Positions 34,840-37,277 of a DNA stretch of 43,168 nucleotides are shown piece by piece. Origin of the DNA: a virus; the IMG/VR virus record IMGVR_UViG_3300033388_001490, positions 1 through 43,168 of that record, one strand, 5' to 3'. The position numbers were made by a program, and so were the translations under genes. Position 1 is the first letter of the stretch. The number at the start of each line of letters is the position of its first letter. The notes under the pieces are model-generated. The model saw nothing but the letters and a program-made list of their open reading frames with translations, was not told the origin of the DNA and ran no database searches.

Positions 34840-35081
34840 AAAGGGGCGCCGTCTACCTCTATTTCGAGGTTGTTAAGATTTCCCTTGACGTTGGGTTTGG
34901 TGCGGACTTTCTCATAAGCCTTCAAGATCGATACGAGCTTCGATGTGCCACCGACTCTAATAATCCCGCTATCGTTGTCAATGGCGCTTACTCGGGTTGT
35001 CTCTACGACGCGGTTTTGGGTGGTGTCGAATACTTCTGATACCACGTCGATTGATACGTTGTGCATTTTTTCTGTACTCAT
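34836..35081 (-). CDS. Hypothetical protein, frameshift donor
   Basis: An 81-residue protein (STEKMHNVSIDVVSEVFDTT, SAIDNDSGIIRVGGTSKLVSILKAYEKVRT) predicted to be alpha/beta. AAAGGA lies eight bases before the ATG. It ends EVDGAPF-stop at C CCT TTT TGA, which allows -1 slippage into the 34234-34839 frame. Unknown function. Confidence 0.6.
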   Translation of the reverse strand: MSTEKMHNVSIDVVSEVFDTTQNRVVETTRVSAIDNDSGIIRVGGTSKLVSILKAYEKVRTKPNVKGNLNNLEIEVDGAPF

Positions 35082-35132
35082 AATACATTCCTTTAAAAAG
35101 TGTTATAAAACATTATCCCAGCCCCTATAGGA

Positions 35133-35624
35133 CTAAGGGAAATTCAATCTTGCAAACTCGCCATGGTATTTATTAGCTGCTGAGTCGTAAGCCGTCGCTG
35201 CTTTTATAAGGCAGGTAAATAAACCTAAATGAATAACTTTACCATCAAGACGTATCTGAGACCTCCATTTATTGGCGCCTTTCTCCCAGCAGACGCCTTT
35301 GAATCCGCATTTGTTATTTGCGTTAATCTTCCTGTTCTTTGCGTTTTCGGCTTGAGTACAATGACGTAAGTTGGACCGTTGGTTGTCAAGAGTGATGCCG
35401 TTTCGGTGGTCTATTTCTTTGCCATTGACGCTTCCCAAGATAGCAACGTGCATTAGTAATGTCGTCCATTTACCATTGGCCTTGATGCCGCGTTGGGCAT
35501 AAAGCTTGTTTTCCTTAGGTTCATGTGCGTGCCATTTATATTTATTAAGTTCTTCGCAGTCACTGTCGTCTACCAACGTGAATGTGTTTGGGAATTTCTT
35601 AGTACTGATGTCAATTTTCTTCAT
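35133..35624 (-). CDS. HNH homing-type endonuclease with AP2-like end
   Basis: A 163-residue nuclease: HNH core LLMHVAILG, EIDHRNGITLDNQRSNLRHCTQAENAKNR, then GFKGVCWEKGANKWRSQIRLDGKVIHLGLFTCLIKAATAYDSAANKYHG, an AP2-type DNA-binding motif. This pairing is typical of free-standing phage homing nucleases. GGAG lies seven bases before the ATG at 35624; the frame further up covers the structured leader and is not coding. It has its own promoter. Confidence 0.88.
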   Translation of the reverse strand: MKKIDISTKKFPNTFTLVDDSDCEELNKYKWHAHEPKENKLYAQRGIKANGKWTTLLMHVAILGSVNGKEIDHRNGITLDNQRSNLRHCTQAENAKNRKINANNKCGFKGVCWEKGANKWRSQIRLDGKVIHLGLFTCLIKAATAYDSAANKYHGEFARLNFP

Positions 35625-35644
35625 GGTAACTCCAATAAAAGAGC

Positions 35645-35726
35645 CAGCCGGAGTTGTTACGCAGTATGGGCTTGAACCCGGATTGCCTCCGGCTGACTTC
35701 AATTGATTGTTTTGTACTGCGTAACA
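35645..35726 (-). promoter_or_regulatory. Pseudoknotted leader of the HNH gene
   Basis: In minus order: TGTTACGCAGTA (35726-35715), CAGCCGGAG (35695-35687), hairpin GGG-TTCAAG-CCC, TACTGCGTAACA (35666-35655), then after one base CTCCGGCTG (35653-35645). The 12-bp and 9-bp stems are perfect and cross, forming an H-type pseudoknot with a one-base junction. CTCC of the last arm is complementary to the gene's GGAG ribosome site 21 bases further on, allowing a switch. The predicted transcription start lies at the first base. Confidence 0.65.
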
Positions 35727-35733
35727 TACCATA

Positions 35734-35761
35734 AGTATAACCGATATTTCTGGAAAGTCAA
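35734..35761 (-). promoter_or_regulatory. Promoter of the HNH leader
   Basis: TTGACT (35761-35756), 16-base spacer, TATACT (35739-35734) on the minus strand, with the shared extension TTGACTTT and GTTATACTTAT also found in the main early promoter at 37905-37932. Start predicted near 35727. Confidence 0.7.
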
Positions 35762-35935
35762 CTAATTTTATTATTATTCTAAAGGGTGGCCGAAACTGTG
35801 AGGCCGCAGCCACCTGATCTATTAACGGTACTACCCTTTTATGAGGCACTATGCTAGTTAGGCATGATTGCTGCACTCCTTTCGGTTAAGGTCAATAATG
35901 CCCGTCTCTCCGGGCTGTCACGGTTGGCTTTTGTT

Positions 35936-35972
35936 TCGGACTTTCTACCGTTTCTGTCCGACCCTTGGTAGA
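35936..35972 (-). ncRNA. Compact H-type pseudoknot in the large RNA
   Basis: TCTACC (35972-35967), TCGGAC (35961-35956), GGTAGA (35949-35944), GTCCGA (35941-35936). First pairs with third, second with fourth; both stems are 6 bp and perfect, with loops of 5, 6 and 2 bases. Part of the 35780-36430 element. Confidence 0.6.
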
Positions 35973-36033
35973 CATTTAGAGACCGTCTTGAAGGATGAAA
36001 CCATCCAGTCTTTTCGTGAGCTTTCACTCAATG

Positions 36034-36106
36034 TCCTCGGCTGGACTCGAACCAGCAACCGTTTCTAATGGGATTAAGAAAGCTCTACCATTTGAGTTAC
36101 GAGGAC
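36034..36106 (-). tRNA. tRNA-like cloverleaf, abnormal anticodon loop
   Basis: Acceptor stem GTCCTCG / CGAGGAC is perfect 7 bp with discriminator A; T arm GCTGG-TTCGAGT-CCAGC is canonical; the D arm has three pairs plus an A-C mismatch with loop AAATGGTA. The anticodon stem TTTCT / AGAAA closes a loop of 10 bases (TAATCCCATT) instead of 7, so no anticodon can be assigned. CCA is not encoded. It may be a decayed tRNA, a tRNA mimic within the large RNA, or a tRNA with an unusual loop. Confidence 0.7.
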
Positions 36107-36435
36107 GGGTGGGGCAGGCAATGTTACAGCAGTGTCTTTTATTGGCTAGCCTTCGCTGTAGAACACGTCACTGCCCCATATTAACTTATTCAAAGAACTG
36201 CACGGCGGGCAGGCTATTCGTGTTCCCGTATTCCGGCAATGTTACGCCGCTTACCGGCTTATAGACACTGCCACGCCGTGCTATATCCATTGTCGGGGCA
36301 GGATTCCCCACTCTGCACCTAAAGCCGTTCTGAACTTGAACAATGCAAGCTAGGCAGTTGCAAAGCACTTGGTTCTGGCCTCGTCCGTTCCTTACCCGAC
36401 GCTACCACGCCGCCCGATAATGGGATATATCTGTT

Positions 36436-36463
36436 ATTCTATTGTCTTAAAGAGCCTGCTCAA
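36436..36463 (-). promoter_or_regulatory. Promoter of the large RNA
   Basis: TTGAGC (36463-36458), 16-base spacer, TAGAAT (36441-36436) on the minus strand. The start is predicted at about 36429, the first base of the long 5' stem. Confidence 0.55.
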
Positions 36464-36480
36464 GAGAAGATGGGCGGGGG

Positions 36481-36633
36481 TTAGGCTGGTTTTGCTTTCA
36501 TAAGCTGACAGGCAGGCATTTCTGGCAATCTGAAAATTGACTCTGGGTTGACGCCACATAAAGGATCGAACCCCTCTATTTGACTATGAAAAGCACAATC
36601 TTTACACTTGGGATGTTCTTTCGGTTCATTCAT
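36481..36633 (-). CDS. Cys-rich mini-protein, 50 aa
   Basis: MNEPKEHPKCKDCAFHSQIE start (CxxC), then PLCGVNP and PACQLMK, four Cys in a zinc-knuckle spacing. GGAG lies nine bases before the ATG. Last gene before the noncoding region. Unknown function. Confidence 0.62.
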   Translation of the reverse strand: MNEPKEHPKCKDCAFHSQIEGFDPLCGVNPESIFRLPEMPACQLMKAKPA

Positions 36634-36684
36634 CTGTCATTACTCCTATAAAGGTTAGCCCCTGTGAGGGGGAGATTGCGTGAG

Positions 36685-36876
36685 TTAAGCCTTTGCAGCT
36701 TCAAGCCGGTCAAGGGCCTGTTCCATCGCGTATACATGCTTATCTGCTGCGTCCGTATGCCCCTCGATATAGCCCCTGACACCGGCATACTCCGACTTTA
36801 TTATCATCTTGTGTACGGTAATGTCTAATACTTCCATACGAATTTTAATAGACGTCCTGCGTTGTTCTGGTGTCAT
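36685..36876 (-). CDS. Small helical protein, 63 aa
   Basis: A 63-residue product, mostly helical (MTPEQRRTSIKIRMEVLDITVHKM, GHTDAADKHVYAMEQALDRLEAAKA). AGGA lies eight bases before the ATG. No family recognised. Confidence 0.6.
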   Translation of the reverse strand: MTPEQRRTSIKIRMEVLDITVHKMIIKSEYAGVRGYIEGHTDAADKHVYAMEQALDRLEAAKA

Positions 36877-36941
36877 GGGTAAATCCTTTTAAGTTAAATA
36901 ATGCCCCACCCCAGAGAAGATGGGCAGGAGCGGGAATTGGT

Positions 36942-37277
36942 TTATCGGCTTACTTTTATAACGAAGTCGGGGTTGATTTCACATGCAGTAAGAACGGACT
37001 GAAGGAAACGCAAGAAATCGTCGTATGTTCCCCATCCATTAGGGGAACCCAAAGCTCTAAAGTGTTCGGGGTCATGTTCTAGTAATCTTATTCCCTCTTT
37101 AAGGATGGGAACAACTTCTGAAGTTAAATCATATCCATTTTCTTCGGGTCGCCATAAGCATTTATAAACACCCGCTTCAGCAGCCATACGGCCTAGATTG
37201 TGAGTAATATTAAAACTCTCGTATTCTATATGCCCACAATGGCTACATTTACTTTCTATACTAAAATCTAAACCCAT
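36942..37277 (-). CDS. Phage protein with N-terminal CxxC
   Basis: A 111-residue protein: MGLDFSIESKCSHCGHIEYESFNITHNLGRMAAEAG, then GYDLTSEVVPILKEGIRLLEHDPEHFRALGSPNGWGTYDDFLRFLQSVLTACEINPD. The layout (zinc knuckle, THNL motif, GWG-YDDFL) recurs in phage early proteins without known role. AAAGGGAAAC ribosome site upstream. Confidence 0.68.
   Translation of the reverse strand: MGLDFSIESKCSHCGHIEYESFNITHNLGRMAAEAGVYKCLWRPEENGYDLTSEVVPILKEGIRLLEHDPEHFRALGSPNGWGTYDDFLRFLQSVLTACEINPDFVIKVSR

Follow-up and report, generated by a model that had tools for sequence, protein, structure and literature searches.

A compact pseudoknot in a virus genome, probable member of a new class of structured RNA carried by phages mainly of Proteobacteria

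The window analysed here is the whole 43-kb virus record IMGVR_UViG_3300033388_001490 (43,168 nucleotides), whose minus strand from about 37.9 to 20.4 kb resembles an early operon that includes the recombination genes YqaJ and ERF. In the upstream part of this operon, between small ORFs and an endonuclease gene, lies the region 35780-36430, for which the original prediction had proposed a single large RNA with its own promoter, many stems, a compact pseudoknot and a cloverleaf. The absence of a credible gene, which had also been claimed, was confirmed: the ORFs of 57, 66, 89 and 60 aa found in the interval match no PHROG family. The features of the region are collected in Table 1.

Table 1. 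Positions of the features in and around the RNA region, numbered along the window.
Feature	Position	Strand	Remarks
HNH_3/AP2 homing-type endonuclease gene	35133-35624		neighbour of the RNA region
Second hairpin, UGACA-GCCCG-GAGAGA-CGGGC (UGAC + GRRAGA loop)	35900-35922	(-)	recurs in relatives
Pseudoknot core	35959-36013	(-)	CM R1, 70.1 bits; single copy in window
Stem B (pseudoknot), 3' strand AAGGGU	35961-35966	(-)	partner of AUCCUU 35991-35996
Stem A, 3' strand GUCU	35980-35983	(-)	partner of AGAC 36008-36011
Stem B (pseudoknot), 5' strand AUCCUU	35991-35996	(-)	partner 35961-35966 (AAGGGU)
Position R	36001	(-)	tied to position S at 35967
Stem A, 5' strand AGAC	36008-36011	(-)	partner 35980-35983 (GUCU)
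Small hairpin UGAGUGAAAGCUCA	36017-36030	(-)	between tRNA-like domain and core; conservation in relatives not seen
Embedded tRNA-Gly(ccc)-like domain	36032-36106	(-)	ARAGORN; Rfam tRNA 41.4 bits, threshold 29
Putative 5' domain, strong local stems	36107-36430	(-)	no excess folding stability; membership in RNA putative
Candidate sigma-70 promoter TTGAGC-N16-TAGAAT	36436-36463	(-)	9/12 match

The stems that had been found by hand did not exceed chance when the 651-nt interval was folded (z = -1.9; two out of 20 shuffled sequences folded just as well). The plus strand folded equally well (z = -2.4), and the mean z of 150-nt windows was -0.8 inside the interval and -0.5 outside it; folding energy was negative as evidence for an RNA on both strands and in windows. 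The proposed promoter lies where it had been placed, reading from 36463 to 36436, yet as a real promoter it is near chance level: 4 promoter-like sites were found in the area, while 1.5 ± 1.4 were expected. A better string, TTGACT-N16-TATACT (35761-35734), comes after the region, which does precede another promoter as had been said. Because the folding is unremarkable and the promoter matches are near chance level, the hand-found stems alone are insufficient for the claim, and it is the conservation of the core, in place of stems or folding energy, that supports the RNA.

As to one RNA of 650 nt, relatives were found for the core, the GRRAGA hairpin and the tRNA domain, and for no other part. 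The 5' domain had no homologue among the phage records, and a base-by-base comparison with five Schitoviridae loci found none either; the 3' part (35780-35890) showed neither a homologue nor excess stability. The length of 650 nt and the own promoter are thus given here as a hypothesis. The closest relative phage that we found (L111) is without the core in the stretch compared. We also considered a hairpin that would always precede stem A; it showed only a weak excess over shuffles.

When the region was compared by BLASTN with 50,697 phage records, only a block of about 50 nt matched, at 82-91% identity; the phages it matched are Schitoviridae that infect Xanthomonas and Stenotrophomonas. Further members were collected by pattern scans of IMG/VR and GTDB genomes and from annotated phage records, giving 95 loci in total with 74 distinct cores. 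The carriers, whose hosts are mainly Proteobacteria, are lytic Schitoviridae, lambdoid/e14-like prophages, Burkholderia phage Mica and many metagenomic phages. A control pattern with every anchor reversed hit 1 contig against 81 for the true pattern, and removal of the GGATG anchor brought no extra contig. In the R1 search, each complete phage or genome carrying the core had one copy. Of the 296 Enterobacterales and 300 Burkholderiales genomes scanned, none matched apart from the two that had served as search centres, in a search whose filters lose weak matches, and the reading as a host-chromosomal RNA was rejected on this ground; the plasmids searched gave no match. By its distribution, the core appears to be a rare phage-borne RNA and no host RNA.

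The compact pseudoknot of the original prediction is the part best borne out: it is 55 nt long in the window and is backed by covariation in homologues, found for both helices as the prediction had called for. The consensus of the core reads 5'-[A: nnGAC] UGGAUG R Y U n [B: nnnnUU] CAAGACG [A': GUCnn] n UAAAUGUCYAC S [B': AAnnnn]-3'. It is a pseudoknot because stem B joins the loop of stem A to sequence 3' of stem A. In the class the core has about 57 nt, about 22 of them essentially invariant, and three unpaired blocks (UGGAUG, CAAGACG and AAAUGUC-AC) hardly vary. The pairs of stem A are formed in 73-74 of the 74 cores and occur as AU, GC, UA and CG; stem B has six pairs, each changed on both sides, with 95.3% of the cells paired. 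Positions R and S keep to fixed combinations in every one of the 74 distinct cores (AG in 43, GC in 30 and GU in 1).

Covariation was measured on an alignment of 71 sequences with nine clean pairs and shuffle controls. These pairs were formed in 96.7% of the cells, with both-sided changes in eight of the nine, and 155 cells were changed on both sides compared with 44.9 ± 5.5 in shuffles. The covariation score was 0.672 against 0.163 ± 0.015, a value that none of 500 shuffles reached, and the signal was abolished when stem partners were slid by 1-3 columns. The broadest search pattern left the stems unconstrained. The loop blocks, however, belonged to the search patterns, and part of their strict conservation therefore comes from the way in which members were gathered; members from mEp390 and Klebsiella have altered invariant loops and score 33-34 bits with R1. 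Since 37 cells are G-U and 7 are A-C, the RNA is on this strand, that of the neighbouring tRNA genes. The window has all the features of the class, namely stem A, stem B, the R-S tie and the loops UGGAUGR, CAAGACG and UAAAUGUCYAC, and R1 run over it with filters off gave 70.1 bits (E 3e-14), the window being among the 71 sequences from which the model was built.

Other readings of the core did not hold. UUCAA cannot be read as a T-loop, because covariation pairs its UU with AA, and a T-box-like pairing of UGGA with tRNA ends is not general, L008 having UGAA. Conserved codon structure was sought in the core and is absent, the spacer lengths differing by non-multiples of 3; a short conserved peptide (M-x-S-F-K-T-V...) was rejected because spacer changes of 1-3 nt lose the frame while the pairing persists. 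Two annotated hypothetical proteins overlap the core in other phages, mEp390_036 in phage mEp390 (L051:4880-5122) and UZV39821.1 in phage PB119 (L003:3047-3136), and are probably annotation artefacts. With covariation across 74 distinct sequences, the suggestion of an unnamed class has been upheld, and the core at 35959-36013 is, as far as comparison of sequences can tell, almost certainly a member of a new class of structured RNA.

The predicted cloverleaf is present as well, in a degenerate form: its anticodon loop has about 10 nt, its D stem is mispaired and CCA is not encoded. Its score of 41.4 bits is low, and it is either a decaying tRNA or a domain resembling one. Of the tRNAs lying within 700 nt of the core, all 40 share its strand; they come from 23 of the 74 loci and are 2.8 times as dense as elsewhere, and in all the locus DNA examined 124 of 126 tRNAs lie on the core strand. 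A canonical tRNA occurs somewhere in the locus DNA in 29 of 75 distinct loci, and in six loci a tRNA 3' end comes within about 7 nt of stem A, mostly touching it. In the Schitoviridae phages matched by BLASTN, the core belongs to a tRNA cluster, where it occupies stretches of several hundred nt that hold few genes, in most of these phages flanked by tRNA-Gln and tRNA-Arg. Arrays of 28, 20 and 15 tRNAs were found in L089, L092 and L094; in arrays the core often stands after the tRNAs instead of ahead of them.

In L097, a permuted tmRNA lies about 180 nt downstream of the core. On this 4.3-kb phage contig it spans 1592-2015 (RF04321, 106 bits, tag ANDDSYRPQLRIAA), and the contig also holds tRNAs and a sub-threshold Proteo-phage-1 RNA. 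The segment L094:8149-8263, at the end of the 15-tRNA array, matched the Y RNA-like model (YrlA) with a sub-threshold score of 41 bits. Enlarged anticodon regions were seen in tRNA-like domains of the L008 group (118 nt), L026 (167 nt) and L038. The L008 genes (L008:11620-11738 and the relatives L012, L019 and L022) are about 118 nt long and lie about 150 nt downstream of the core; the D arm, T arm and acceptor stem are normal, and the anticodon arm is swapped for a larger structure.

Downstream of the core, the hairpin with UGAC and a GRRAGA loop was found 31 times within 300 nt in 28 of the 74 loci, where about 0.7 (0.65) were expected, and once on the opposite strand. Cronobacter phage ESP2949-1 and DIBBI, which are without the core, have this hairpin too. 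In enterobacterial members the slot after this hairpin holds either a simple hairpin or a tRNA-like structure (L038); in DIBBI the same slot reads as a genuine tRNA-Ser. The DIBBI stretch (L052:1550-2420) belongs to about 1.5 kb without annotated genes upstream of terS, and reads as several unannotated tRNAs that alternate with structured segments, some of them of the GRRAGA type. In L009, L021, L029, L042 and L046 a CGUAAG-type hairpin (GCCGC-CGUAA-GCGGC), perhaps an alternative module, replaces the GRRAGA hairpin about 45 nt downstream of the core. Pantoea phage AH07 is 92-94% identical on both flanks, with about 260 nt containing the core and hairpin replaced. On this comparison, the core itself appears to be an exchangeable module.

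In lambdoid/e14-like prophages the core lies in an untranslated stretch of about 0.7-1 kb that leads from the repressor to the left operon. Genes downstream of the core are of early recombination types such as ERF, RdgC, DUF2303 and YqaJ. In about nine loci the core comes after a tyrosine integrase gene. In Burkholderia phage Mica it is flanked by the integrase gene on one side and a two-way terminator on the other; as there are only convergent genes beyond the terminator, the Mica core can be no leader and is likely a product itself.

Membership in GOLLD or ROOL, which had been put forward as one possibility, was not supported, nor was membership in OLE or HEARO: positions 35000-37000 of the window gave no Rfam 15 match to them even at E <= 10, the GOLLD model being that of its conserved 3' domain. 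In five Schitoviridae loci the core was unmatched by Rfam 15 at E <= 5, and in nine further loci of the family no model fell on the core. A group I intron or RNase P, considered from the strings AAAUGUC and GAAAGA, had no model match. For OLE, a Gram-positive host, an OapA neighbour and the Rfam model would be expected, and here no model matches; HEARO (IscB omega-RNA) likewise has no model match, and the neighbouring HNH gene is of the HNH_3/AP2 homing type, as opposed to IscB/IsrB.

The analogy with GOLLD and ROOL stood in part, the genomic niche and the embedded tRNA being shared and the family match being absent. GOLLD and ROOL are RNAs of phages and prophages found in tRNA islands, sometimes with a tRNA in a linker (PMC12286853), and they resemble the present RNA in having a conserved part with variable parts, pseudoknots, a place in tRNA islands and an unexplained function (PMC12286853). 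Phage origin near tRNA genes applies here too, but this likeness is at the level of the niche and is not specific. The conserved core here has about 57 nt, whereas GOLLD and ROOL have a fold of several hundred nt, and the hosts here are mainly Proteobacteria. GOLLD is longer than about 500-800 nt and forms a closed 14-mer cage; the present RNA is known from sequence alone.

Small structured RNAs of early leaders, some with tRNA-like processing, include the c4 antisense RNA of P1/P7 and the CI immunity RNA of P4. Rfam finds no c4 (RF01695) in the window or the family loci, and R1 found no core in the P1 stretch compared. Proteo-phage-1 RNA (RF03044), the YrlA Y RNA-like element and permuted tmRNA share the same phage stable-RNA islands (L097 and L094) as separate elements elsewhere in them, none overlapping the core. 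Neither the motif strings nor a described class was found in the open-access papers searched. Judged against Rfam 15 and open-access papers, the class is previously undescribed, and its niche is common to GOLLD and ROOL.

We give about an even chance to the core acting in trans as a stable RNA. It would be made together with phage stable RNAs, in a tRNA/tmRNA island or as the leader of an early recombination operon, and then released as an RNA product. Through its invariant loops, folded into a single tertiary surface, it would bind one fixed partner, most likely a part of the host translation/tRNA machinery or other copies of the RNA; the flanks, which vary and include the tRNA-like domain, would serve as exchangeable modules. 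A product acting in trans is suggested because the complete phage Mica has no downstream gene for a leader to control, and because something required on both early operons would hardly be present in a single copy. The invariance of the loops points to one fixed partner, and the genomic neighbourhood makes tRNA, the ribosome or self-assembly likely candidates. Against this, the position from repressor to left operon in temperate enterobacterial phages suits a cis leader equally. It is doubtful, if conceivable, that we are dealing with large modular phage RNAs built around an invariant pseudoknot, a counterpart of GOLLD and ROOL in phages of Proteobacteria; such RNAs would carry tRNA-like domains and either dock on the host translation machinery or form RNA-only particles.

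The main rival is processive antitermination in cis as in phage HK022, where put consists of two stem-loops (about 70 nt) present in two copies, putL and putR (PMC9378689), and acts via the zinc-binding domain of the RNA polymerase beta' subunit. As it emerges, the pseudoknot would attach to the transcribing host RNA polymerase, which could then read past terminators in tRNA arrays and in long leaders that are not translated. The prophage position corresponds to that of putL, after the repressor and at the head of the left operon, and both are compact RNAs in early transcripts (PMC9378689); early recombination genes follow, YqaJ and ERF in the window, untranslated arrays require protection from termination, and by eye both RNAs have a short AGAC/GUCU-type helix and then UAAA. 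We nevertheless hold it to be rather unlikely: the present RNA is a pseudoknot, occurs once per phage and not as a pair, is found also where there is no downstream gene (in Mica no gene of the same direction precedes the terminator) and often follows the tRNAs of an array, R1 gave no significant match on HK022, and AH07 keeps the operon without the core.

An RNA-processing element or small self-cleaving ribozyme, maturing nearby phage tRNAs or separating them from mRNA, would agree with the tRNA 3' ends at or near stem A in six loci and with a compact pseudoknot whose roughly 22 invariant nucleotides resemble a catalytic or ligand-binding core, but canonical tRNAs are missing from the locus DNA in a clear majority of the distinct loci, no Rfam ribozyme family matches, and a single core accompanies arrays of up to 28 tRNAs, so that we regard it as quite unlikely. 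It is highly unlikely that the pseudoknot and tRNA-like domains are a decoy or counter-defence RNA absorbing host nucleases or sensors that attack tRNA; the degenerate domains with swollen anticodon regions (window, L008 group, L026 and L038), the occurrence in lytic and temperate phages and the exchangeability of the module speak for it, whereas degenerate tRNAs are expected from decay too. The ordinary reading, a decayed tRNA gene with chance stems in an intergenic gap, fits the unremarkable energy of the 651-nt fold and the degenerate tRNA, yet chance cannot yield the covariation and recurrence of the core, and this reading can hardly be right; it is refuted for 35959-36013 and possible for 36107-36430 and 35780-35890.

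As the core is present in isolated phages that can be grown in the laboratory (RiverRider, Pokken, Paxi, Piffle, PB119, Mica and mEp390), its function is directly testable. The class shares its tRNA-island niche with GOLLD and ROOL, themselves unexplained, and would be evidence that this niche has repeatedly taken up mutually unrelated RNA folds; the role of such RNAs for phages becomes experimentally accessible.

A second structured element was noticed at 35614-35773 (minus strand), where the promoter string TTGACT-N16-TATACT is followed by a leader. It has an 11-bp stem (35715-35725/35656-35666) and a loop (35687-35694) complementary to 35646-35653, which would form another pseudoknot. The phage records searched gave no match to this cassette. 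The same cassette is present in L111 (8775-8937) ahead of a different gene, and about four compensatory double changes between the two copies could be seen by eye.
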